This document shows, one piece after another, positions 6,679 through 41,165 of a stretch of DNA of 41,484 nucleotides. Position 1 is the stretch's first letter. Each line of letters starts with the position of its first letter. Source of the DNA: a virus; the IMG/VR virus record IMGVR_UViG_3300003885_000013, positions 1-41,484 of that record. One strand, given 5' to 3'. A program made the translations under genes and the position numbers. The notes beneath the pieces were generated by a model that was not told the origin of the DNA, did not search any database, and saw only the letters and a program-made list of their open reading frames with translations.

Positions 6679-7563
6679 ATGTTTTTAGGAGGTCTTGAAG
6701 TTTTTGATGTGAGTCTTTTATTTAGTTTAGTGGGGATGATGATATTGGATGTAGAAGGTACCATAGATATTAATAACTTTTCTTCTCCGGAATCTTCGGT
6801 AGCTGAAAAAGCATATACGTCTATTATTCCGGAAGGATATAGGGATAAACCTTATCTTAAAGATGTAAAAGATATAAAAGGCCTTTTTGGAAAATTAAAC
6901 AGTTCACAAGAATTAATAGGTAAAAAACAGTTTGGGGTTCCTGAAGATAACGCATCTAAAGAAATATGGGATAGTTATTATAAAACAGCCGGGCGTCCGG
7001 ATAAGGCGGAAGGGTACGAGTTTAATGATTCAACTTTACCGGAAGGATTAAAGAGAGACGATAAAACAGTAAAAGCAGTAAAGGATCTTTTTCATAGCGC
7101 GGGGGTTAGTTCTAGAACTGCTAAAGTTATTCAAGAAGGCTACGATAAAATATTAATCGAAGCGCATGGTGATAGGATTAAAGCCAATGAACAACAGGAT
7201 GTTAATTTTGATAATCTAGCGTCTGAGACTTTCGGGGATCAGAAAGATAAAGTTTTAGCGGCAGGTAAGAAGTTATTAGAGATTCATGCGCCGGAGAAGT
7301 TTAAGGCTCTTATAGACAAACTTCCCAATGAACAGCTTATTCTTATGGCCGGAGTACTTAACGATATTAGTAAAAAATATATTAAAGAGGATGAGATAGA
7401 TGGCAGCGGACCTAAAGGCGATGCTTCTTTAGAAGATCTTAGGAGTGAACAGAAAAAGATTATGGCTTCTCCCGCTTATCAATCTTCGTTTCATCCGGAA
7501 TATGAAAAGGCGGCAGATAGATTAAAAGAGATAGCAAACGAGATAAATAAATCTGCTACTTGA
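6679..7563 (+). CDS. Putative capsid scaffolding protein
   Basis: A 294-residue acidic, helix-rich protein directly before the capsid gene. The segment PEGYRDKPYLKDVKDIKGL, then a proline-poor helical body and a charged C-terminal helix (residues 255-294), match podoviral scaffold proteins, which template procapsid assembly and then leave. AAGGGAGG precedes ATG 6679. The first 23 residues are unusually hydrophobic (residues 12-22, SLLFSLVGMMI), odd for a scaffold. The stop codon TGA at 7561-7563 overlaps the -35 box of the capsid promoter. Confidence 0.65.
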   Translation: MFLGGLEVFDVSLLFSLVGMMILDVEGTIDINNFSSPESSVAEKAYTSIIPEGYRDKPYLKDVKDIKGLFGKLNSSQELIGKKQFGVPEDNASKEIWDSYYKTAGRPDKAEGYEFNDSTLPEGLKRDDKTVKAVKDLFHSAGVSSRTAKVIQEGYDKILIEAHGDRIKANEQQDVNFDNLASETFGDQKDKVLAAGKKLLEIHAPEKFKALIDKLPNEQLILMAGVLNDISKKYIKEDEIDGSGPKGDASLEDLRSEQKKIMASPAYQSSFHPEYEKAADRLKEIANEINKSAT

Positions 7564-7588: not shown

Positions 7589-7594
7589 TTTTGA

Positions 7595-7746
7595 CATAGA
7601 GTACGGGGATCGCGCAAGCGTCCGTTGATAATCCTAAAAGGATTCGAGGGGATCTCGTTAAAAAGCCAGGAACGTCCGTCGCTTCACAAAACGGGTATCG
7701 TATCCGAAACAGGGATAACTTTAACCAATAACTTGTGAGGTGGCAG
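7595..7746 (+). promoter_or_regulatory. Structured 5' leader of the capsid mRNA
   Basis: About 150 untranslated nt lie between the capsid promoter and ATG 7747. Hairpins: AATCC/GGATT (7630-7634 with 7640-7644), CGAG/CTCG (7645-7648 with 7654-7657, directly stacked on the first) and CGGGTA/TATCCG (7692-7697 with 7701-7706, triloop TCG). No U-tract follows any of them, so stabilisation or translational control is more likely than termination. Confidence 0.5.
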
Positions 7747-8634
7747 ATGGCAAATCAGCAAATAGACAAAGCTCTTATAATCCAGTTCTCGGATTTACTG
7801 CATGTCAAAGCTCAGCAAATTAGGGCCCGGCTTCGTCCGTATGTAAGAGTTAAACCTATGATAGGAGATAGGTTTGCTTATGACGGTTTAGGAGACGTGG
7901 AAGCAAGAGAATCGAACGCCAGGATTCAGCCTACCGTTTTTGATGAAATCGATCATACCCGAAGGAAAATAAGCCGCAGACGTTTTGTTGTAACTCTCCC
8001 GATTGACGATATGGACGTTCGTGCCGTATTGATTAATCCGGAAGGCGAATATGCGATGGCGTGTATTCGGGCCATGGAGAGAGTGTTTGATAAAGTCGGC
8101 GTAGACGCGTTGTTTGCTACTGTGTCTACCGGTAGAGATTTTGAAACAGATGTTGCTTTTGCTGCGGATGGCGGTTTTACTGTAGATGCAACCGCGGGTT
8201 TGACGTATGAGAAATTGCTTGAGATTCAGCAGAATTTCATAGATGCGGATGTGGGAAATGATATACCTGAAACGAAAGTAATGGGTATATCCGGAGACGA
8301 GCATACTGCTTTAATGAAAGAGACAGAATTGACCAGCGGAGATTTTTCTCGTCAATTCGTAGTAGATAAAGGAGAGATTATCCGGGCCGCCGGGATAGAG
8401 ATAGTTAAGTTTGCGGCTAACGCGCGAAGCCCTATTCTTTCAGTAAGCGGAGGTACGAGAGATAACTTTGCGATGTCAACAAGAGCAATCTGTTATGGCC
8501 TTTCCAAAGAAATGAGTATTGAGATTAAAGACAGGCCCGATCTTGTTGATGTAAAACAGGTTCAGATTATCGGTATCTTGGGCGCTGTAAGAACTGAAGG
8601 GGTATTGGTTCAGAAGGTTCAGTCAACGGACTAA
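7747..8634 (+). CDS. Major capsid protein
   Basis: A 295-residue coat protein, assigned from length, position after the scaffold, and its own strong promoter and terminator. The sequence fits the podoviral capsid group: basic loop DHTRRKISRRRFVVTLPIDDMD at about residues 74-95, an E-rich early segment and a beta-rich C-terminus with VKQVQIIGILGAVRTEG. ATG 7747 is chosen over an in-frame GTG at 7735 because GAGGTGG lies six bases before it. It would form the HK97-fold icosahedral shell. Confidence 0.85.
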   Translation: MANQQIDKALIIQFSDLLHVKAQQIRARLRPYVRVKPMIGDRFAYDGLGDVEARESNARIQPTVFDEIDHTRRKISRRRFVVTLPIDDMDVRAVLINPEGEYAMACIRAMERVFDKVGVDALFATVSTGRDFETDVAFAADGGFTVDATAGLTYEKLLEIQQNFIDADVGNDIPETKVMGISGDEHTALMKETELTSGDFSRQFVVDKGEIIRAAGIEIVKFAANARSPILSVSGGTRDNFAMSTRAICYGLSKEMSIEIKDRPDLVDVKQVQIIGILGAVRTEGVLVQKVQSTD

Positions 8635-14670: not shown

Positions 14671-17600
14671 ATGCCTATAAATTTATTAGCTGGAAAATTA
14701 GAAACGGTATCTCAGGAAAAAGCCACGAATCTTTTACCTGAATTAACTGGATTATATAAAGATTCAGAAGGAGAGGCTAAGCTTCCAAAAGTGTCTCCGA
14801 AAAAACCACTTATCGAGGATCTATATAACGCTTTCTTCTCTGGATTAAATCGAACTTGGGCTGATACGGCGAGGAGCCCTGCGGCTACATTTGATCTTTT
14901 GCATATGCCAAGTAATTTTTTACTGAAAGCAGCGGGGAGACCAGATTTACAGGTTCAGTCTCCTGAATGGTTAATGGATAACCCCATAGCGGAGTTATAT
15001 GATTATCAGACAGAAGCTTTTAGGAAAGAGATATCACCCACTAAATCTTTTGAGGAAGCTTTTGAAACAAAGGATTTTGACGGTATAGGAAGACATATAG
15101 CTATAATGGTAGCTGAAAATGCACCTCAGCAGATAGGTATAATTCTTAGCTATATGGCCGGATATCCCGGAGCGGGATTAGCGGGAATGGGTATGCTTAC
15201 CGCAACTCAATCTCTAAAAGAAGGACGAAAACGAAGAAAAGATCCAGCGATGAACGCGTATAATGCTTTAGCTAAAGCCACAATCGAAGTAGGTTTTGAA
15301 TCTTTAGGGACTTTTAGATTATTAGATAAACAAAGTAAGGCTTTGATTAAAAGTTTTGGGACTAAAAATGCTAAGAAAATTGTAGGGGACGTATTTAAAA
15401 CTATTTTTGCTTCTATGTTAGGTGAGGGGAACGAAGAATTTTGGACTTCTTTAGCGCAAGATTTTTCTGATTTCTCTACCGGTATCAATCCTTTAGCTTT
15501 AAAAGGATCTCTTGTAAGAGCGTTTGAGGCTGGTACAGTGGGGGCTATTTCCGGTGGAATATTAACGGGTCCGGGAGCTATTCAATTAGGTCGACGTAGT
15601 GTTGCTTTAGAGAAGATGCAGAAGGATGTTAATCAAGTTACTGAAGCGTTGGCAGAGGATAAGAAGGTTATTTCTGAAATAGAAGCTGTACGACGGAAGG
15701 ATTTAGGATTACCCGAAATAGAAAAAGTAACCCCTGTGCAAAAAAAAGAATTGGAAGCTGCTGAGATTAAGCAAGTAAAAGAGATAATCGACGTCCAGGA
15801 ACCTGAACTAATAACAGATATAAAGAAATTGACAGAAAAGATAAATACCTTTACGAGTGAAGGTAAGCCTGTTCCTGAATCTCTAGTAAAAAGGCAACAG
15901 GCTTTAGTTAATACATTAAAGGCCTTAGCTCCTATAGAAACAACGACAGGCCTCCGTAAAGGGGTAACACAACGGGTTATTAAGGAATTGACAGGTATAA
16001 CAAAACCGGTTAAGAAAGTAGTTGTGGGGGAAAGAGTCCTTTTAACAGAGAGAATAAAGACTCTTGCAAGGGGATTTAGAGAAGGTAGAACTTTAACTAG
16101 GGCAGAAATTGAAGCTACCCAAACGGAGGTAGTGGATGTTTTACAGAAGTCTAAATTAGAACCTAAAGATAAAGCGAAATTTATTAGTACTATAAAAAAT
16201 ATACAAACTAGAGAACAGTTACAACAGGTTTTACCTGAGATACAGGAACGGATAGCCGTTTTAGAAGAAAAAGCAGAGGTTAGAACTTTAAAAAAAGAGA
16301 TAGCTAAAGAACTTAAAACAGTAAAACCTAAAACACGGGCGGGAAAGAAAACGGGTAAATTTACGGCGGATGTCCAGGAGGCCTTAGATTTGATAAGAAG
16401 TATATCGAAAATGACTCCTCTTGAAGCAGAAAAAGCTATTGCTCAAAATCTTAAGACAACGCAAGGTCTTTTGCCGTCTGAAGATATTCGACTTCAGAAT
16501 GAACTCTTAAGTCTTGTGGCCGAATCCGAAAAACAGGGAGTTGTTTCATTAAATAGACTTTTAAATAGGATTAGAGTTTTAAAGAAACAGGGTAAAGAAG
16601 CTAGATCTCTTTTAAGAGAAGAGAGAAAAGAACGTCTTGAGAAGGAGAAACAGACAGTTATAGATCAAGTTACCGGGGGTAGAGGGATTCAAGTGGGACG
16701 GGAGACAATAGGGGCTCGTAAGACAAGAGTCAAGATATTAAAAAATGCTCTTCGGGGATTAGGGACCAGATGGATACTTTCATGGAATGGTATTATGGAA
16801 ACTCTTGAATTTAACGCAGGAGTTACCAGTAAAAAACTCAAAGATCTTTTTGGCGTTTTAGATCAAGAGAATAGTGTCAGGCGATTAGAGTTAGATTTTA
16901 GGCAGAGATTTGATAAAGCTATTTCCGAATCGTACAATATCGAGAATAAAAATATAGCTATCCATAAAAAACTAAACGACTTATCTCAGGATGTGAATCT
17001 CGGAACATTTAAGAATAGCAAAGGGATCACAGTGGAACTTATTTTTACTAAAGATGAGATAATTAAAAAATGGATGGAGCTTCAGGACCCTACGCTTATC
17101 ATGTCTTTTGAAGAAGGTAACAACTTTACTCCTGAAATAGTTAATGCTATTAACGAAGAAATGGGCAGCAAGGATAGGACTTTTGCTAAGCGGCAATTTC
17201 AAATGTATAGAGAACAATGGTTAAAAATAAATCCGATATATAGAGAATTTTTTGGAGTTAATTTATCGTTCAGTGAATTTTATTCTCCAATAGCAAAAGA
17301 GGGATTTCAACTTGACCCATTACAGTCATTAAGTCAGCTATTAGAGGATAATGCGAGAAGGGCGGGAATTAGAGTAACAAGTTTAATAGCAAGAGCTCGA
17401 AACGTATTACCTCTAAAGACACAGAGTAGCGTTAATGTCTTAGACAAGCATTTTAAAGAGACTAATTATTTTATATCCTGGGCTGAAAAATTAAAGGATC
17501 TTAATGAAGTTTTCAAAGACAGTAATGTTGTAGAGGCAATTAATCAGGAATTTTCTCCTGGAGTTTTAAAAGCGATAGGTAATACTTTAAGTGATTTATC

Positions 17601-18723
17601 TTCAAGAGGTAGTAAGAATGCAAGGCGTTTCCCTGTGGTTGATTTTTTTAGGAAAAATTTTACTATTGGAAAACTTATGATCAAGCCGGTAATCACAGTT
17701 AAACAATATGTCTCAACGTTCGCTTATTTGGAAAAATTGAATCCTATAGAGTTTGTCGCCGGGATAGCTGATTTTTGGCTTACTGGCCCGGTGAAAAATT
17801 TTAAAACTTTAGAAGCAGAGAGTATCTTTATAAAAACCCGAAGTCTTAAGAATATGGAGCGGGATATAACAGAGGCCGTTAATTCCCCTATTTTTAAACA
17901 ATATTCTAAGACAAGGAGTTTTTTAAATACATTAATGCTTAACGTACGTCTTGGGGATAAGGGAGCTATTGTATTTGGAAGTTGGGCTTTACGAAGAACG
18001 AGATTAAAACAAAAAGTCGATCTACCTGATATTATAAGGGAGTATGAGGGATTTAGTGCGGATACGCAGCAGTCGGCGGATTTATCCAGATTATCTGAGG
18101 TTCAAAGAGGAGGAAGTATAGAGAAATTATTTACTATGTTTAAGTCCGCGCAAAGGCAGTATCTTGCTAAAGAATTAAATGCTGTAAAAAGCCTATTTCA
18201 AAAAGGGGGGTTTTCCCCAAGTAATATAGGTAGAGTGGCAAAAGTGATGGCTATATATCATGTTCTATTACCGGTCATGTTTCAATTTATAGCCAATGCC
18301 GGAGGCTGGAGTGAAGAAGATAAAAAAGAATATATACGGGCCGGGATAATAGGTTCTTTAAATGGGCTTTTTATATTTGGGGAAGCGGTAGATGCGGTAA
18401 TTAGAAAGGCTTTAGGCCTTCGTGTTTGGGATCTAGAGATTCCTCTTTTAGCAGTAAAAGATTCTATATTAAAGGCTATGGGTAAAATAGAGTGGGATGA
18501 TATTACTACAGAAGATGTTTTTGAAGCCATGGTCGCATTAACAGGGGCAGTAGATAGTCTTGCTATACCTGCAACGACAGCAAAGAATATGATTATTGGG
18601 GTGGACGATTTAATAAATGGGAATATAAAAGAGGGGCTATTAGAATTAATGGGGTATTCCTCTTTTATCACAAAAGATAAAAAAAAGGGAGCTCCCGGTT
18701 CTAATAGGCAAGTTGAATTTTAA
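14671..18723 (+). CDS. Large internal virion protein (T7 gp16-like)
   Basis: A 1350-residue protein, close to T7 gp16 (about 1320), last of the ejection proteins. Hydrophobic, Gly/Ala-rich segments occur at about 155-185, around 285-300 and again near 1190-1240, which suits membrane insertion during DNA ejection. Residues of about 320-650 are charged, Lys/Glu-rich and probably coiled. I do not recognise a lytic transglycosylase domain at the N-terminus, unlike T7 gp16, so wall digestion may be supplied elsewhere. The start follows a GGAAGAAG site. Confidence 0.75.
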   Translation: MPINLLAGKLETVSQEKATNLLPELTGLYKDSEGEAKLPKVSPKKPLIEDLYNAFFSGLNRTWADTARSPAATFDLLHMPSNFLLKAAGRPDLQVQSPEWLMDNPIAELYDYQTEAFRKEISPTKSFEEAFETKDFDGIGRHIAIMVAENAPQQIGIILSYMAGYPGAGLAGMGMLTATQSLKEGRKRRKDPAMNAYNALAKATIEVGFESLGTFRLLDKQSKALIKSFGTKNAKKIVGDVFKTIFASMLGEGNEEFWTSLAQDFSDFSTGINPLALKGSLVRAFEAGTVGAISGGILTGPGAIQLGRRSVALEKMQKDVNQVTEALAEDKKVISEIEAVRRKDLGLPEIEKVTPVQKKELEAAEIKQVKEIIDVQEPELITDIKKLTEKINTFTSEGKPVPESLVKRQQALVNTLKALAPIETTTGLRKGVTQRVIKELTGITKPVKKVVVGERVLLTERIKTLARGFREGRTLTRAEIEATQTEVVDVLQKSKLEPKDKAKFISTIKNIQTREQLQQVLPEIQERIAVLEEKAEVRTLKKEIAKELKTVKPKTRAGKKTGKFTADVQEALDLIRSISKMTPLEAEKAIAQNLKTTQGLLPSEDIRLQNELLSLVAESEKQGVVSLNRLLNRIRVLKKQGKEARSLLREERKERLEKEKQTVIDQVTGGRGIQVGRETIGARKTRVKILKNALRGLGTRWILSWNGIMETLEFNAGVTSKKLKDLFGVLDQENSVRRLELDFRQRFDKAISESYNIENKNIAIHKKLNDLSQDVNLGTFKNSKGITVELIFTKDEIIKKWMELQDPTLIMSFEEGNNFTPEIVNAINEEMGSKDRTFAKRQFQMYREQWLKINPIYREFFGVNLSFSEFYSPIAKEGFQLDPLQSLSQLLEDNARRAGIRVTSLIARARNVLPLKTQSSVNVLDKHFKETNYFISWAEKLKDLNEVFKDSNVVEAINQEFSPGVLKAIGNTLSDLSSRGSKNARRFPVVDFFRKNFTIGKLMIKPVITVKQYVSTFAYLEKLNPIEFVAGIADFWLTGPVKNFKTLEAESIFIKTRSLKNMERDITEAVNSPIFKQYSKTRSFLNTLMLNVRLGDKGAIVFGSWALRRTRLKQKVDLPDIIREYEGFSADTQQSADLSRLSEVQRGGSIEKLFTMFKSAQRQYLAKELNAVKSLFQKGGFSPSNIGRVAKVMAIYHVLLPVMFQFIANAGGWSEEDKKEYIRAGIIGSLNGLFIFGEAVDAVIRKALGLRVWDLEIPLLAVKDSILKAMGKIEWDDITTEDVFEAMVALTGAVDSLAIPATTAKNMIIGVDDLINGNIKEGLLELMGYSSFITKDKKKGAPGSNRQVEF

Positions 18724-18741
18724 TATAAAGGAGAAAACATC

Positions 18742-26796: not shown

Positions 26797-28736
26797 TTCT
26801 TATACCTCTTTCCGCGCCAACCTTCCGCCTCTATAGGGCATCCGGTAGACCAGCTATGCGGCGCTGTTAGTATTTCAATGAATTCTTCCATACTGCCGAA
26901 GCCCTCCGGGACCTCCGCAATTACTTCGTCATGCACAGATAACACCAACCGGTACCCCTTTTCTTCACATTTAAGCATAGCATGGGCCATTATATCCCGG
27001 GCAGTGGCTTGTGTAATGTTCTCTACTAGTTTTCCCCCATAGGTAGACTGCCTTTCATACGCTTTTGTTTGTGAATTTACGCCCATAAAAGTAAGCGCTC
27101 TTCTTGTTTCACCCCAGGGAGTTATTACTTCCTGGATCTTAGGCCTGTAATAGGCAAGGCAGCGTCCGGAGGGAAGCCGGCAATAGAGAAATTTACCGTG
27201 CCGCGCCCATTTAACCCGGCCGCTAGGCACTTGTTCGCTTGTCTCAGTAGCCCTAATGGCTGCTCTTTCTTGTCTTTTCCATAAGTCAATAACGCTTTTA
27301 TATCTGGATCTATATGCTTCTACTGCTTTTCTCGCTAACCCCTCGGAGATATCAAGCCCCCATGCCTGGCAAGTAGCATGAAATTTAGTAGCCCCCATCC
27401 CATACCCGCATCCGAGTATAGCTGTTTTTCCCAGCTGTCTTTCTTTTTTATTTATTTCTTCTTTATAGTAAATATCTTTAGCCATATCTACATAGATATC
27501 CTTACCTTCTCTATAATTATTAAGCCCGGCTTCATCCTTCGCGTGCCATAATAATACCCGGGCTTCGATGGCTGAATAATCTGCCACTAAGAGATCGTAT
27601 CCGGGCTTAGATATGATCATACCCCTAAGGCAAGAGCTGATAGCCGACATAACGCTAGGGTATAAAAATTTAAGCATAGCTAAATCCCGCTGCTTCATTA
27701 TAGCGATACACGTGGCAATATCTTTAATCGTCCCTATTGGAAGATTATGTAACTGGACTAATTTCCCACTCCAACGACCAGTAGAAGCACCATGGTAAAT
27801 AAGAGTGTCCCTAATCCGAGGATCATTATCACTCGTAGCATTGCTAATAGCTTGATATTTAGCCGTACTTGTCTTTCCCAATTCTTGCCTAATAGATAAC
27901 ACATGCGCAACTGCGGGGGGTATTCGTGTCTGAAGCGTTTTGGAAACTGTGTTTTTGGTAAAATCACCCATTTCGACTCCTTGGGTTTTGATCCAGTCCA
28001 GAGTGCGTTGACGGCGAGACACTTTATCAAGGTATCCATTTGTAATTTTTTTGAGCTTCTCCACACATTCATTTTCATATTCTCCTATAAGGTAAAGGGC
28101 TGCTTTAACGGCTTCTCTATCTATTTCAACACCCCTAAGATTAATGCGCTGATCCATTAACCAGACTTGACGCTCTATGCTATTTAAGTTTGGAAGAGAA
28201 TTATCTATTTCTCTTTCTACTACCACATCATTTTTACAGTATTCATAGAGACGTTGAAACTCTACAGGATCATTACACCATTTATCATTATTAAGTCGGG
28301 TAATTCTTCTGGGTTTACTCAATTTAAGCATTACTCTTTTACCCTCTTCATCTTTCAAATTTGAAAGATGAAGAGCCTTAGCGGCTCTGGCTAAAGCTTT
28401 AGGAAGAGCATGGGCCGAGGCTTTAGCCGCGGTACAGCTCCATTGTTCTAAAGGAATAACCGGCCAGCCAAATTGTTTCACTAAGATGTTGTGCCATATA
28501 CAATACTCAAAAAATGAATTATGCGCGACGAATATTTCTCCAGCGTCAATATATTTTTTTATACTAGGCGGGCATCTATTTTTTTTGATCTCTTTTTGTG
28601 TTGCAAGAAAAACCTCACCTCCGTTATGGGCAAAGCAATAGCAAAGAATCTTAGTGCTTGGGTGTATAGAATACACCCAAGCACCAGATTTAAAAATATC
28701 CACTTCGGATCTGGATTCAAAATCTAAATGAATCAT
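26793..28736 (-). CDS. Family A DNA polymerase with proofreading exonuclease
   Basis: A 647-residue replicative polymerase. The N-terminal DEDDy exonuclease shows Asp5/Glu7 (HLDFES), AHNSFFE at 71-77 and YCKND at 166-170. The polymerase has TGRWSGKLVQLHNLP (319-333), motif A DYSAIEAR at 386-393, the O-helix RQLGKTAILGCGYGMG at 433-448 and motif C SVHDEV near 605. All catalytic residues appear intact. There is no 5' nuclease domain. This short type is usual in phages with DUF2800/DUF2815 genes, which lie directly upstream, and its start overlaps the DUF2815 gene (ATGA). Confidence 0.95.
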   Translation of the reverse strand: MIHLDFESRSEVDIFKSGAWVYSIHPSTKILCYCFAHNGGEVFLATQKEIKKNRCPPSIKKYIDAGEIFVAHNSFFEYCIWHNILVKQFGWPVIPLEQWSCTAAKASAHALPKALARAAKALHLSNLKDEEGKRVMLKLSKPRRITRLNNDKWCNDPVEFQRLYEYCKNDVVVEREIDNSLPNLNSIERQVWLMDQRINLRGVEIDREAVKAALYLIGEYENECVEKLKKITNGYLDKVSRRQRTLDWIKTQGVEMGDFTKNTVSKTLQTRIPPAVAHVLSIRQELGKTSTAKYQAISNATSDNDPRIRDTLIYHGASTGRWSGKLVQLHNLPIGTIKDIATCIAIMKQRDLAMLKFLYPSVMSAISSCLRGMIISKPGYDLLVADYSAIEARVLLWHAKDEAGLNNYREGKDIYVDMAKDIYYKEEINKKERQLGKTAILGCGYGMGATKFHATCQAWGLDISEGLARKAVEAYRSRYKSVIDLWKRQERAAIRATETSEQVPSGRVKWARHGKFLYCRLPSGRCLAYYRPKIQEVITPWGETRRALTFMGVNSQTKAYERQSTYGGKLVENITQATARDIMAHAMLKCEEKGYRLVLSVHDEVIAEVPEGFGSMEEFIEILTAPHSWSTGCPIEAEGWRGKRYKK

Positions 28737-29269
28737 AAATCCAGTATGTCCTTATTACCTTTAACAGGAGACTCGCTTTTTTCTACAGCTTCAAAATCAT
28801 CTTCCGGCATAGCCCTGCTTATAAGCGGCTCTCCATCACGAATCTTTTGAATGTTCTGTAGGCCTAGCGCAACTCCTCTGTTACCGCCGCGATCATACGT
28901 ATACGGCGTAATCGTAGCTCTAGCATAACATCCCGAGTAAAACTCTTCGGGATTAATGATAGGGTTTCTATCCTCATCAATAAGGCCCGGCCGTTGAATA
29001 CTGGTAGCATTGCAGAATACTGTTCCCGCATACCCCTCGTATTCCTTTGTATCTCCGTCTCTAAACGGTGTACGTAGATCTCCAGGCTTCTTATCCCCCC
29101 ACTTCTCCTTAATAGCCTTCTTACAGGCATCTTTAAGGACGGAAAGGTCCGCTGTCTTAGGGAATAGCATGGTAAGACTATACTTTAACTTATCCCCAAG
29201 GCCTTTAGTAGGATTAAAAACATGTACAAAACTTGCACGAAACTCTACGGTCATTACTTTGTCAGACAT
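28733..29269 (-). CDS. DUF2815 single-stranded DNA-binding protein
   Basis: A 178-residue protein of the DUF2815 family, related to T7 gp2.5-type single-strand-binding proteins with an OB fold. Recognisable pieces are KLKYSLTMLFPKTADLS, the FRDGD loop, EEFYSGCYARATITPYTYD and GVALGLQNIQKIRDGEPL. The acidic C-terminal end (KGNKDILDL) is typical of proteins that recruit partners. It would coat replicating strands for the polymerase encoded immediately downstream. GGAGGAAAG precedes the start. Confidence 0.85.
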   Translation of the reverse strand: MSDKVMTVEFRASFVHVFNPTKGLGDKLKYSLTMLFPKTADLSVLKDACKKAIKEKWGDKKPGDLRTPFRDGDTKEYEGYAGTVFCNATSIQRPGLIDEDRNPIINPEEFYSGCYARATITPYTYDRGGNRGVALGLQNIQKIRDGEPLISRAMPEDDFEAVEKSESPVKGNKDILDL

Positions 29270-29300: not shown

Positions 29301-29579
29301 TTACTTTTTGTCAGCTTTCTTCGTTTCCAACTCGGTAATCGTTCTTGCGGGGAAGTCTGCGGTATGATCGTTCCTTATATTCAGATCATACTTTTTATAT
29401 ATCTCATTCCACCACGTTTTTTTCTTTTTTAAAATCACCTGCCGACGTTTTTCAAAAATATTTAAAGCTTCCTGAATAACTTCGGTAGAGGCTACGCTTT
29501 CGGTATCAAAATCTTCGTACGTTTTTGCCTCCTCTTCGGTTATGGTAATCTTTTTTAACTCTTTAACCGGTTCACTCAT
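29301..29579 (-). CDS. Charged hypothetical protein between DUF2800 and DUF2815
   Basis: A 92-residue protein, Glu/Lys/Thr-rich, with one Trp pair (KKTWWNEIYKKYDLN). No known family. Its ATG overlaps the DUF2800 stop (ATGA), so it is translated with that nuclease; it may be a small accessory of the replication or recombination set. Confidence 0.65.
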   Translation of the reverse strand: MSEPVKELKKITITEEEAKTYEDFDTESVASTEVIQEALNIFEKRRQVILKKKKTWWNEIYKKYDLNIRNDHTADFPARTITELETKKADKK

Positions 29580-30721
29580 AATTCAAACTCTCCTTTCGGG
29601 CTAAAATCAGAAATAGCGCTCCCTCTAACCGCTTCTCCTTTGTCGGTATTGGAAACTAATTTATTGCCCGTGTCTTTTTGTTCTGTTAAGCTGTAAACGC
29701 TTTTTTTACCGACTATTTTTTCCAATTTAGCCGGACTTAACAGGCTTTTGTTGTATATCCTATCTCCATAGCGCTCGCTAAAAAGAGATATAACTTCGTT
29801 TGAATCAATCCACGTCCTGTTACTTCTTTTCTTTACTAGTTTAAAACCAGGTATCTCCTTTCCGGATTCAGCTAATTCAAAGGCATGATTCTCTAAGGTA
29901 GTTATAAAGTTTTTAACTATATCTACCTCTTTTAATAGCTGTCCTATTTTTTCTACCGTTAGATCCCGCTTTTCACTTTCAAAATCTTGCTGTGCCATCA
30001 TATCCCGTTTGTTTAAAATTTCCGGACAAACAAGAGTAGCCGTGCAAAATTTACAATGTTTCCCCGGACGCCGGGGAGCTTTAGGATCCTCAGTAGCTTT
30101 AATTTTTTCTGTTAATTCTTTAGCGAATTCATCTAATGCGGCCATCGGTATTCGCCAACGTCTAACCGCATTTTCCGGATCTCCGCAACGGGGCTGGACT
30201 ATTACCAGCTCTACCTCATCGACATCAAGGTCTGCTACCGCTCCCAACGCATAATATAATAACTGTATATTATTTACAACATCGACCCAAACACCGGCTC
30301 CGTGTTTGTAATCATATACAATTAATTTCTGGAAAGGAACGTAAAGAAAAGCGTCGTTGGTCCCGGCCGCTTTTTTTGAGATACGGGGAAGCTCAAAGGA
30401 TCTCTCTATAATAAGATCCCTTTTATTAAGGCCGTACGTACTTAAATCATCCTTAATAGCCCCTATGTATACGTCCACGGCATTTATCATACCTTGCGTA
30501 ACCTTTATCTCTTCTCCATCGATCTCGATAACTTCACCTAACCAATCTTCCGTAAATTCATTCTCATTAGTTAGACAAATTTCTCCCAATTTATGCGCTG
30601 CGGATCCTTCCCGCGCATATTTAGAAGAAGGCTGAGGCGGAAGAGTGGCTATAAGAGCCACACTCCCCGGACACTCAAACCAACGGTACCCCGATGATGC
30701 TCCAACAGGACTATGTTTCAT
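29576..30721 (-). CDS. DUF2800 Cas4/RecB-like nuclease with Fe-S cysteines
   Basis: A 381-residue protein of the DUF2800 family. It reads as a PD-(D/E)XK nuclease: EGSAAHKLGE (His43), GTNDAFLY (Asp123) and VYDYKHG (Asp137, Lys139). Four cysteines, Cys17 (WFECPGS) plus Cys223, Cys226 and Cys232 (CKFCTATLVC), have the spacing of the iron-sulfur clamp in Cas4 and AddB. It probably processes DNA ends in replication-recombination with the neighbouring SNF2 helicase and DUF2815 protein. It starts on a 1-base overlap with the upstream gene. Confidence 0.87.
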   Translation of the reverse strand: MKHSPVGASSGYRWFECPGSVALIATLPPQPSSKYAREGSAAHKLGEICLTNENEFTEDWLGEVIEIDGEEIKVTQGMINAVDVYIGAIKDDLSTYGLNKRDLIIERSFELPRISKKAAGTNDAFLYVPFQKLIVYDYKHGAGVWVDVVNNIQLLYYALGAVADLDVDEVELVIVQPRCGDPENAVRRWRIPMAALDEFAKELTEKIKATEDPKAPRRPGKHCKFCTATLVCPEILNKRDMMAQQDFESEKRDLTVEKIGQLLKEVDIVKNFITTLENHAFELAESGKEIPGFKLVKKRSNRTWIDSNEVISLFSERYGDRIYNKSLLSPAKLEKIVGKKSVYSLTEQKDTGNKLVSNTDKGEAVRGSAISDFSPKGEFEL

Positions 30722-34116: not shown

Positions 34117-35120
34117 AGTTTCCTCCCTATTTCTGTTATTACATTCGTAGTTACCGCATTGCCTAAGCACTTATATCTCTGCGTGTCGCTTATTCCTTCT
34201 GTCCAGCCGTCAGGGAAGCCCTGTAATCTTTCGCATTCTGTTGGCGTTAGGCGCCGGATTGAGTTTACGTTTGGATTTTGAATAAAGGGTTGCCTTCTTC
34301 CGCCTTGCATCGTGTTAAGTGTCGGACTGATTCCTTTTGCAGAATATACTCTATCGTTAGAATGTTTAGGTTGGTTGAGTTGTTTTATGTAAGTTCCTTT
34401 TGCATTTTGTCTTGAATAACCTCCGGTTATCGCATTACTAATCTTCCGCCCGTTCCTTTCTTGATTTCCCTCAAAACTGTTTTGATGCTTTTCTCCGATA
34501 GGAAATATTTCCGGTCTACTTTCTCCTCTAAGATGTCCAATAATGAACACTCTTTCCCTATTCTGCGGGACTCCGAAGTTCTTACTATTAAGAACTTGCC
34601 ATTGTAGAATATACCCAAGGTCGGTAAGAATTTTAAGAATTGTCTGGAAAGTAGTTCCAGATCCGTGACTAAGTAGCCCCTTGACGTTTTCAAGTAATAT
34701 ATACCTGGGCTTTTTTGTACGACATATTCGCACAATGTCAAAAAAGAGAGTGCCTCTTGTATCGTCAAATCCTCCGCGTGTTCCTGCGATACTAAATGAT
34801 TGACAGGGGAATCCTGCGCATAAGATATCGTGATCGGGGATTGTTTCCGCTTTAACCTTTGTAATATCTCCTTCATATAATTCCTTTCCTCCGAAATTTT
34901 TTCGGTAGATTTGACAGGCATATTTGTCAATTTCGTTAGCCCAAACACAATTAAATAGTCTTTTGAAACTCCGGTTATCGAATTGCTTAACTGATCCGAT
35001 CTTATTTCTAATTGTTGAGGTTGATTGATATACGTTCTTGTCCTCAAGCTGCATCCTTTCCAGCCCATATCTAAACCCTCCAATTCCTGCAAATAGTTCT
35101 ACAACTCTTATATCTATCAT
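34092..35120 (-). CDS. DNA (cytosine-5) methyltransferase
   Basis: A 342-residue C5 methyltransferase. Motif I is VVELFAGIGGFRYGL at 6-20; catalytic Cys106 lies in AGFPCQSFS; ENVKG follows near 150; NFGVPQNRERVFIIG and the C-terminal RLTPTECERLQGFPDGWTEG are motifs VIII-X. Between them is a short target-recognition region. No restriction enzyme gene is nearby, so it is an orphan enzyme, probably protecting phage DNA from host restriction or marking it. The start overlaps the primase stop (ATGA). Target sequence cannot be read from the protein. Confidence 0.95.
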   Translation of the reverse strand: MIDIRVVELFAGIGGFRYGLERMQLEDKNVYQSTSTIRNKIGSVKQFDNRSFKRLFNCVWANEIDKYACQIYRKNFGGKELYEGDITKVKAETIPDHDILCAGFPCQSFSIAGTRGGFDDTRGTLFFDIVRICRTKKPRYILLENVKGLLSHGSGTTFQTILKILTDLGYILQWQVLNSKNFGVPQNRERVFIIGHLRGESRPEIFPIGEKHQNSFEGNQERNGRKISNAITGGYSRQNAKGTYIKQLNQPKHSNDRVYSAKGISPTLNTMQGGRRQPFIQNPNVNSIRRLTPTECERLQGFPDGWTEGISDTQRYKCLGNAVTTNVITEIGRKLCQINSIK

Positions 35121-37234
35121 AGCTCTTCTACTTTCCCAATAAACGCCGCGCCATTCACATGAGGACGCATATAGACACGGCAGGTTTTATTTAATCTAGG
35201 ATGATGGCTTAATGATTTTCTCCAGCGTAATTCTCTATACATAATATTTGCGATACGGTTTTGTTCTCTCCGGGTAAAATATCGAGCGGTACCTCCAATA
35301 CAATCTTCAAATACTTCTAAGCCGGTAACAACGTCCCTCCTGTATCCTTCATCATCCGGCTTGCTCAGCCATATATCTACTTTTTCCAACCAGGGATCCT
35401 TAACTCTCCGCTTATCCGCTTCTTCTTCAGCAAGATCGGCAACTTCTGTATCCGTGATATATAGATTCACCCCTTGTTTATAGGTATGTAGTATTTCAGC
35501 CCATATCTGATTCCGATCCTTACGTAAGCGGGCCATGTCAATATAATGTACCTCTACGGGCCAGAACCGCCTGTTTCCGGTCATATCTTTAAGGTAGCCT
35601 AGCTCAGCTTCCGGATTTATTGTTCCAAGGAAAATTGACTGTCTAGGAAAATCTTGCGTAATTCGGGCATAAGCAGGACGTACACGATCAACTTGCCGAG
35701 AAATAAATGCTTTAAGGGCTTGTGTTTCAACCCTCCGCGTGCACTCCATTTCAGATACTTCGATAATCCATTTATTACGCATAGCATCAATCGTATCCTT
35801 ATCATGCGCATTAAGTAAGATATCCCCATACCATTCACCTCCCAATATATTACAAACGGTTGATTTTCCTATCCCTTGATTCCCTTCTAATACAAGCATG
35901 TGATCAAACTTTATCCCGGGATCATATATCCTGGCGATCGCGGCTAACAATGTAGTCTTTCCGGCCATACGCGTATACTTATCATCTTTACACCCGCAAT
36001 AATCCGTTAGCCATTTTTCTGTTCTTACCGTGCCGTCCCATGTAAGGCCTTCCAAATAATCCCGGACCGGATGATACGAATTAATTTTTGCCACAACTTC
36101 GGCGGCTTCGTGTATTAATTGTATTGACGGCTCAAAATGCTGAACGTTAGACAAATGATATTTTAACTGGATGGCATCGCTGTCCGTCCAACTGCGATTA
36201 AATCTATCCCCTTTGTGCCAAATGGCAGGCTTTTTAAATTCTATATCCCGGTTAAACATATTAAACCGGAGAAGATCGGAGAGCTCAGAGGCTATCTTCA
36301 CGCTAATAAAAAAATTGACAACATTCGTAAGAGTCTTTTTATATTCTCCGGAGGCTGTCCGGTCCCATTTTATCTTTTCTTTTACTACTGCGTCAGGAAA
36401 ATCAGCCCGGGGATGGCGCTTGCCGGCTACGTCCGTATTATAATTATAACCATTCTTTACTTTCCTTTTAAGTTCGTCCACGTCCCAGGGCGGTTGACAT
36501 TTAGGATTCCACGCTTCGCTTATAATATCAAAGCATTTCTGTTCTGATAAACCAAAATCCCTGCCTCTGCATGCTGTTTGAAAAGTAGTCTTGTCCCCAT
36601 GTTGCCCTTGAATCGCAACAGGGGCGTATTTAAGGTATTCTTTAAAACGGGCTATCGCCTGGATATCATCTTCATAGGAATCAATTCCGGTATTCTTTAA
36701 AAGAGGGCTTTCATTTATGATCAGATCTAACAATTCTATCGGGGCATACATTATATTGTCAAAACTACCGGATAAAAAATCATATTTCTTTCCGGTATCC
36801 GGATGAATACAGCCGACGCCGACAACATACGTACCTTTAGATAAGAAGTCCAGCCCTTCATAAGCCGGGAGACTTTTCTTTATAGGTACCTCGGGAGGTT
36901 TCTTTAAATAGATATGATAGCCTCCGCCCCCGGTTTGAATAATACAGGAATTGAGTTCTATATTAAGGTCTTTACTTAATTTTTTTATGGGATTTTCTTT
37001 AGGTTTGAAATGGCGCGGGTCAACATCTATAACAAGATCGTCTGCCTGTAAAACTACGCCGAAATTACCCGGGAAGTCTTGAGGCGTAAGATCCGGATTA
37101 TAGCGTAAATTCTGCCATTCGTCCTGCCCTTTTTGAGGATGTTTACCACTAAGCGGAAATAAAGTATATCCATGCTCTACATACGTCAGGACAGTTTCTT
37201 TATAAGCGCTCGTCGTCTTTCGCTGCTGTTCCAC
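35117..37234 (-). CDS. Primase-polymerase fused to VapE/D5-like helicase
   Basis: A 705-residue replication initiator-type protein. The N-terminal prim-pol domain (about 10-160) has the metal motif VIDVDPRH (Asp70, Asp72) and GGGGYHIYL (His107). The C-terminal virulence-associated E-type ATPase has Walker A GNQGIGKST at 451-459 and WIIEVSEM at 489-496, then a sensor region with GTINPEAE. It would prime and unwind DNA for the family A polymerase. GTG start, overlapping the HTH gene by 35 bases. Proteins of this kind act at iteron-type origins, as seen near 461-530. Confidence 0.9.
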   Translation of the reverse strand: MEQQRKTTSAYKETVLTYVEHGYTLFPLSGKHPQKGQDEWQNLRYNPDLTPQDFPGNFGVVLQADDLVIDVDPRHFKPKENPIKKLSKDLNIELNSCIIQTGGGGYHIYLKKPPEVPIKKSLPAYEGLDFLSKGTYVVGVGCIHPDTGKKYDFLSGSFDNIMYAPIELLDLIINESPLLKNTGIDSYEDDIQAIARFKEYLKYAPVAIQGQHGDKTTFQTACRGRDFGLSEQKCFDIISEAWNPKCQPPWDVDELKRKVKNGYNYNTDVAGKRHPRADFPDAVVKEKIKWDRTASGEYKKTLTNVVNFFISVKIASELSDLLRFNMFNRDIEFKKPAIWHKGDRFNRSWTDSDAIQLKYHLSNVQHFEPSIQLIHEAAEVVAKINSYHPVRDYLEGLTWDGTVRTEKWLTDYCGCKDDKYTRMAGKTTLLAAIARIYDPGIKFDHMLVLEGNQGIGKSTVCNILGGEWYGDILLNAHDKDTIDAMRNKWIIEVSEMECTRRVETQALKAFISRQVDRVRPAYARITQDFPRQSIFLGTINPEAELGYLKDMTGNRRFWPVEVHYIDMARLRKDRNQIWAEILHTYKQGVNLYITDTEVADLAEEEADKRRVKDPWLEKVDIWLSKPDDEGYRRDVVTGLEVFEDCIGGTARYFTRREQNRIANIMYRELRWRKSLSHHPRLNKTCRVYMRPHVNGAAFIGKVEEL

Positions 37235-37424
37235 TGGCGTTTACTCCCTTTCGTTTATACGAATTATCAGAAAAAATTGCTTCCCGAACTGCATCGAGAT
37301 CAAACATCCAGCGATACTTTCTTCTGATAGCGGGAATTTTACCATTTGAAGCCAGCACACGAATATAATGCGGTGTATAATTTAAAGCTTTTGATGCTTC
37401 CCGCACGTTTACTAATTTACTCAT
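37200..37424 (-). CDS. Excisionase/MerR-like helix-turn-helix protein
   Basis: A 74-residue DNA-binding protein. VNVREASKALNYTPHYIRVLASNGKIPAIRR is a winged HTH of the excisionase (HTH_17) type, followed by YRWMFDLDAV and a basic tail. AAAGGAGGT precedes the ATG at ideal spacing. No integrase is present, so it is more likely a regulator or an initiator of replication than a true excisionase. It is first in the replication operon and directly follows the structured leader at 37479-37663. Confidence 0.8.
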   Translation of the reverse strand: MSKLVNVREASKALNYTPHYIRVLASNGKIPAIRRKYRWMFDLDAVREAIFSDNSYKRKGVNASGTAAKDDERL

Positions 37425-37478
37425 AATAAGGATACCTCCTTTCGTTATCTACTTATTTCTAATTATATAAAAAATACA

Positions 37479-37663
37479 GCTCAATTATGGATTGGCGTGG
37501 TGTTAAGCGACGCCTCGTTTTATTTCTCACTCGAACCCCTTATCATACTCATTTGGTGAGTCCCACTCGCGCCGTATTGTGCGTGGCTGTATCAAGTTTT
37601 CCGCACTTCATGGTTTATCGGTACTTGTCATGCCCCTACCAAGTGAGAACTCCATAATTGAGC
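37479..37663 (-). ncRNA. Candidate structured RNA or attenuator leader
   Basis: On the minus strand the 185-nt segment is closed by a perfect 13-bp helix (37651-37663 with 37479-37491). A second helix, UUCUCACU with AGUGAGAA (37642-37649 with 37524-37531), extends by three more pairs using wobbles. Local hairpins are GUGCG/CGCAC (37602-37606 with 37579-37583), ACUCA/UGAGU (37557-37561 with 37547-37551) and GGCGU/ACGCC (37510-37514 with 37494-37498). Six U (37474-37469) follow the closing helix after four bases. A consensus promoter lies about 40 bases upstream. No ORF fits. It matches no RNA family I recognise. Confidence 0.6.
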
Positions 37664-37705
37664 CTAATATCTCTTTTACTACGTTTTAACGGCTTTGTAT
37701 AGGTT

Positions 37706-37733
37706 AGTATACTGTTAAAAAACCCTTTGTCAA
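37706..37733 (-). promoter_or_regulatory. Leftward promoter of the replication operon
   Basis: On the minus strand a perfect TTGACA (37733-37728), a 16-bp spacer and TATACT (37711-37706). Transcription would begin near 37699, run through the structured leader, and then into the HTH and primase genes. It overlaps the 3' end of the preceding small gene. Confidence 0.75.
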
Positions 37734-41038: not shown

Positions 41039-41080
41039 TATCTCTAATTATTGATACTACTCCGTACTTCATGTTCTTTG

Positions 41081-41165
41081 TATAGTTTACACTATGAAGC
41101 AATGCTCGTCAAGCGTTTATTTTCATACTATTAATATTATATAGTTTACACTATGAAGCAATGCT
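41081..41165. repeat. Duplicated promoter-operator element
   Basis: A 26-bp exact repeat occupies 41081-41106 and 41140-41165, followed by imperfectly matching tails, so a 59-bp unit is duplicated. Each copy contains ATAGT-TTAC-ACTAT, an inverted repeat with the look of an operator. The left copy overlaps the early leftward promoter. Confidence 0.75.
41084..41112 (-). promoter_or_regulatory. Leftward early promoter
   Basis: On the minus strand TTGACG (41112-41107), a 17-bp spacer and TAAACT (41089-41084). It matches nine of twelve consensus bases and lies before the first early gene, with a start near 41077. The -10 box is within the inverted repeat ATAGT-TTAC-ACTAT, so a bound protein would block it. 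The second repeat copy keeps the -10 but has a poor -35. Confidence 0.55.

Follow-up and report, generated by a model that had tools for sequence, protein, structure and literature searches.

Among the systems described so far, the closest to the locus analyzed here are the attenuators in bacterial and phage leaders that act by intrinsic termination, with which it shares a promoter, a structured leader, a GC-rich lower stem, a U-rich tract and a downstream operon. On the other hand, the stem at this locus closes a 159-nt interior rather than a short loop, and no antiterminator beyond chance, no known ligand or protein and no homologues were found. Compared with ordinary intrinsic terminators, the loop of which is far shorter, the stem here is AT-rich and the U-run comes 5 nt late. 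6S RNA, phi29 pRNA and similar RNAs resemble the locus in size (~185–230 nt), in their paired 5′ and 3′ ends and in having their own promoter, but the central bubble of 6S RNA has no counterpart here, and a search of Rfam gave no match to any RNA of this kind. Retron non-coding RNAs are alike in having inverted ends around a possibly structured segment; they differ in that no reverse transcriptase is present among the scanned proteins of this phage and the interior of the segment is not msr/msd-like.

Promoter, closing helix and U-rich tract of the putative HTH-primase leader

The window, i.e. the whole 41,484-nt stretch of viral DNA that was analyzed, looks like a complete phage genome from end to end, with a 20-bp terminal repeat. 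It encodes a podovirus-type head-tail connector (PF12236) and a capsid protein (PF19821), and its leftward genes include those for HTH, Prim-Pol/VapE, cytosine methylase, SNF2 helicase, DUF2800, PF10991 (formerly DUF2815) and DNA polymerase A. The connector and the family A polymerase make the phage unlike phi29. The features relevant to the leader, in window coordinates, are as follows.

37706–37733, minus strand: sigma-70 promoter TTGACA-N16-TATACT, 11 of 12 consensus positions
37664–37705, minus strand: A-rich 5′ leader, in which AAGAGAUAU could pair with GUAUUUUUU 3′ of the closing helix (minimum-energy fold)
37651–37663, minus strand: 5′ arm of the 13-bp closing helix, GCTCAATTATGGA, part of a perfect inverted repeat
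37492–37650, minus strand: 159-nt interior with a predicted helix UUCUCACUUG/CGAGUGAGAA and small hairpins (prediction only)
37479–37491, minus strand: 3′ arm of the closing helix, TCCATAATTGAGC, pairing perfectly with GCTCAATTATGGA
37469–37478, minus strand: U-rich tract UGUAUUUUUU, as read in the sequence; putative transcript 3′ end
37200–37424, minus strand: HTH_17 protein, first gene 3′ of the RNA segment (Pfam HTH_17, E 3.6e-6)
35117–37234, minus strand: Prim-Pol/VapE-like primase-helicase (Pfam VapE-like 1.6e-73, Prim-Pol 4.4e-11)
29576–30721: DUF2800 gene
28733–29269: PF10991 gene

The leftward promoter reported in the first-pass annotation (37733–37706) was the top-scoring one of the region, lying about 280 nt from the start of the HTH gene (37424). 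The perfect helix described there was likewise recovered, as 13 base pairs between 37651–37663 and 37479–37491, spanning 185 nt from outer end to outer end and enclosing 159 nt. The region after the promoter had been called free of ORFs, and indeed no ORF of at least 60 aa occurs within the 185-nt segment on either strand, where only tiny ORFs and broken frames were seen; reading of all six frames for a hidden or broken gene gave nothing convincing. The six U residues said to follow the helix are present (37474–37469), but they start 5 nt past it, after a UGUA spacer; in total, eight of the first 10 nt 3′ of the helix are U. The GC content of the segment was 47.6% vs 22–30% in its flanks and 28–36% in most other intergenic stretches measured, a contrast that is compatible with a structured RNA and with a foreign insert alike.

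An intrinsic terminator calls for a stable stem with a U-rich tract directly behind it; the locus combines a 13-bp stem and 8/10 U with a 159-nt loop and a 4-nt spacer, and the closing helix is not listed by a terminator scan whose rule admits loops of 3–8 nt only. When 300 sequences were randomized at the dinucleotide composition of the leader, none had a perfect inverted repeat of more than 10 bp, compared to 13 bp observed. Over the whole genome, chance alone should produce about 0.4 repeats whose arms reach 13 bp or more and lie within 260 nt, so that the weight of the closing helix rests on its location, which is intergenic, 3′ of the promoter and 5′ of the U-run.

Two sets of repeats were also seen near the ends of the window. 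At 461–540, four copies of TTYGAACCTATTTT (the last one cut short) are spaced by ~20 nt in an iteron-like manner near the genome end. Two promoter-like repeats at 41078–41106 and 41137–41165, 97% identical and 59 nt apart, contain the near-palindrome ATAGTGTAAACTAT and probably form a tandem early promoter that includes operators.

Folding of the segment and of the growing transcript

The 185-nt segment folded more stably than its shuffles (z = −3.3, 2 of 500 shuffles being as stable), whereas the 159-nt interior taken alone did not (z = −0.4, 166 of 500 as stable). Since the interior is ordinary once the closing helix is removed, the folding signal is essentially that of the closing helix itself. 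The plus strand of the segment folded at least equally well (z = −5.1), and the claim of at least four further helices inside the segment could thus not be upheld beyond chance.

Two mutually exclusive folds were predicted for the interior, both ordinary against shuffles. When the growing transcript was folded, UGAGUAUGAUA was the predicted partner of the 5′ arm, and GCGAGUGGGA that of the next strand, as long as the 3′ arm was missing, and everything switched to the closed form once the 3′ arm was made; in full-transcript folding, the probability of the closing helix rose from 0.00 at 215 nt to 0.99 at 228 nt. As a control, the arms were kept and the remainder was shuffled (n = 400), and the early fold, the candidate antiterminator, was equaled in stability by 261 of the shuffles, and 81 of the 400 kept the arm sequestered as well. 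An alternative fold for a terminator/antiterminator switch therefore exists, yet it is ordinary, and we did not count it as evidence; an antiterminator fold beyond chance, as an attenuator or riboswitch expression platform calls for, was not found in the shuffle test.

Known RNA families, related phages and competing explanations

No Rfam 15 covariance model matched 37479–37663 on either strand, at the gathering threshold or at E up to 5, the families meant being 6S RNA, group I intron, RNase P, pRNA and riboswitches, and the DUF2800/DUF2815 motifs if these are included in Rfam 15. The earlier impression that the segment belongs to no known RNA family therefore holds at sub-threshold scores as well. 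Kinship with the DUF2800/DUF2815 RNA motifs had been suggested; the phage carries both gene families, but the segment lies 7 kb from them, and the right-hand 15.5 kb of the window gave no match to either motif even at low score, leaving this kinship unsupported. A retron had been argued against for want of a reverse transcriptase, and in agreement with this no such family was detected in those proteins of the window that were scanned with Pfam and/or PHROGs, the downstream HTH protein, primase and methylase among them.

Searches for the segment itself were also negative. blastn against phages and plasmids returned stray short matches only, and pattern scans of viral contigs found no locus for GGTAGGGGCATGACAAG and no contig having the two inner 10-bp arm sequences 144–174 nt apart. 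GATAAGGGGTTCGAG (33 loci) and CTCACTTGGTAGGGG (14 loci) did occur in viral contigs, with no real similarity past the seed by blastn or covariance model. A single-sequence covariance model, R1, found only itself and three weak chance matches (E 0.65–8), and gave no match on the relatives' full records. The HTH and PolA proteins, used as queries in protein searches, yielded no relatives, and a likeness to tRNA/tmRNA (GGTTCGAG) was discarded, ARAGORN having found none in the window.

By alignment of the primase, 15 viral relatives (loci) were obtained. The closest ones, L007–L011, have 46–49% primase identity, which is the nearest distance available for comparison of leaders. Their HTH-primase leaders are located at:

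L007, 3680–3771
L008, 3042–3133
L009, 2229–2388
L010, 962–1091
L011, 3694–3792

In all five, a strong promoter lies directly 5′ of the HTH gene, which is followed by the primase gene, and the window promoter is for this reason most simply regarded as the operon promoter. Their leaders (60, 60, 67, 98 and 128 nt) open with a small hairpin whose arms co-vary (GAGGC/GCCUC, AAGGUU/AACCUU, GGGUU/AACCC) and continue with TTTTGTCGAACACA or AATTGTCGAACACA; L009 and L010 bear one further hairpin each, of differing length. These differences in length and hairpins indicate that the leader is a variable spot in these phages. The 185-nt segment was absent from all five orthologous leaders; at 46–49% identity, this is one of the outcomes that the first-pass annotation had itself named as refuting its proposal. 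The relatives' intergenic regions contained no long inverted repeat with a comparable U-tract layout.

Other genomes showed different intergenic elements. A motif, TTGTCGAACACAAAA, is dispersed in up to ~10 copies per genome (L079–L088; genomes G004, G005, G007 and G008), being placed in intergenic leaders just 5′ of ribosome-binding sites, mostly on the coding strand; it resembles start-associated sequences of some mycobacteriophages and is absent from the window. In G004 and G005, a U-tract also accompanies a GC-rich helix, formed by GCGCGTT... and ...GCGCGCTTTTT or GACGCGCTTTTTT, in a long non-coding region (L079, about 16960–17040, minus strand; L083, about 18670–18740, plus strand), possibly a small terminated RNA.

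We tentatively favor, at a probability of roughly 42%, the view that the HTH/primase (replication) operon has a leader RNA specific to this phage, which would terminate part of the transcripts and release a ~230-nt RNA. The promoter, the closing helix, the U-tract, the GC contrast and the position speak for this view; the long loop, the AT-rich stem, the late U-run, the lack of homologues and the ordinary interior speak against it. RNA polymerase would start a few tens of nt 5′ of the segment, the emerging 3′ arm would pair with the 5′ arm, and the U-rich tract would then release part of the transcripts at about 37465–37470, while the remaining ones would continue into the HTH and primase genes. 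Of the original proposal, a terminated RNA or an attenuator in front of this operon, the anatomy fits (promoter, paired ends, U-tract, and the same gene order in five relatives), whereas the attenuator part is weakened by the ordinary antiterminator fold; termination itself, the share of read-through, regulation and the function of the released RNA are what we infer. The strong promoter of its own, the paired ends, the U-tract and the GC-rich island would also suit a stand-alone small RNA gene, in which nearly all transcripts would end at 37469 and the RNA would act in trans on host or phage, with the operon read from promoters further upstream, the likely upstream genes being co-directional. 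This we regard as doubtful, since no relative was found in any collection searched, the relatives' promoter at this place sits directly before HTH-primase, and the interior is not unusually stable. It is improbable that the segment is the first-seen example of a new class of phage RNA, 185 nt long and end-paired, that is abundant from its own early promoter and acts on the host or on phage replication.

The inverted ends, the deviating GC content and the lack of the segment in the equivalent leader of relatives could alternatively be explained by insertion into the leader of a MITE-like element, its terminal inverted repeats 13 bp long, which would be without any function here. We give little credence to such an insertion because the phage genome has one copy and none was found in phages or plasmids by blastn, the inner arms recur at the proper distance in no viral contig, and the flanks (..TATTAG and TGTATT..) differ, confirming that the repeat ends are not bordered by a target-site duplication. 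A fortuitous inverted repeat in a long untranslated leader behind a promoter would agree with the genome-wide expectation and the ordinary interior fold; it has a low likelihood given that 0 of 300 random leaders reached even 11 bp and that the repeat would have to coincide with promoter, U-tract and GC island. Finally, the position of the repeat between a promoter and a regulator-like gene, and several short related GAGTG/CACTC elements between the arms, might point to two inverted 13-bp protein-binding sites on DNA, e.g. operators for the HTH protein. However, GCTCAATTATGGA has no second copy in the genome with up to two mismatches, both sites are downstream of the promoter, and the U-tract is left unexplained, which makes operators very unlikely.

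A structured leader of the capsid gene

Another intergenic region of the window was found by comparison with other genomes.

7592–7712, plus strand: structured leader of the capsid gene, just 3′ of a promoter at 7560
7735–8634: capsid gene (PF19821)

The leader aligned with those in G004, G005, G007, G008 and G009, and a model was built on these six sequences, the window included. Genomes not part of the model were matched as well: G002 (E 1.7e-9, near the contig end and immediately 3′ of the gene in scaffold position), G010 (E 4.4e-6) and, weakly, G001 (E 0.05), the last two immediately 5′ of genes for PF19821 capsid proteins. The capsid leader thus occurs in at least eight phages (the window, G002, G004, G005 and G007–G010), and weakly in G001.

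In the model-fitted nine-row alignment, which leans towards structure and includes one weak, probably spurious row, 14 of 24 pairs were changed on both sides, and the covariation score was 0.457 vs 0.170 in shuffles (0 of 500 reaching 0.457), with slid controls not exceeding 0.09. A MAFFT alignment of the first six leaders gave 8 of 24 pairs changed on both sides; when nine were aligned independently with MAFFT, RNAalifold retained 14 pairs, 7 of them changed on both sides. Two of the hairpins have a common internal loop, in which a single U is opposite GUAG/GUAU beside CCG/CGG, and the first hairpin of the window has GGAU in place of GUAG/GUAU. An Rfam search of the capsid leader gave no match.

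As a candidate new RNA family, the capsid leader is much better supported than the segment at 37479–37663, one known copy of which defines no RNA family at present. If real, that segment would represent either a leader-type RNA control point heading the replication operon of a phage or a small phage RNA of a new kind. The capsid leader matters more: it is possibly a site for control of capsid expression by the capsid protein or a host protein, and this leader, absent from Rfam, makes it directly testable whether these tailed phages control the expression of their capsid gene through RNA.
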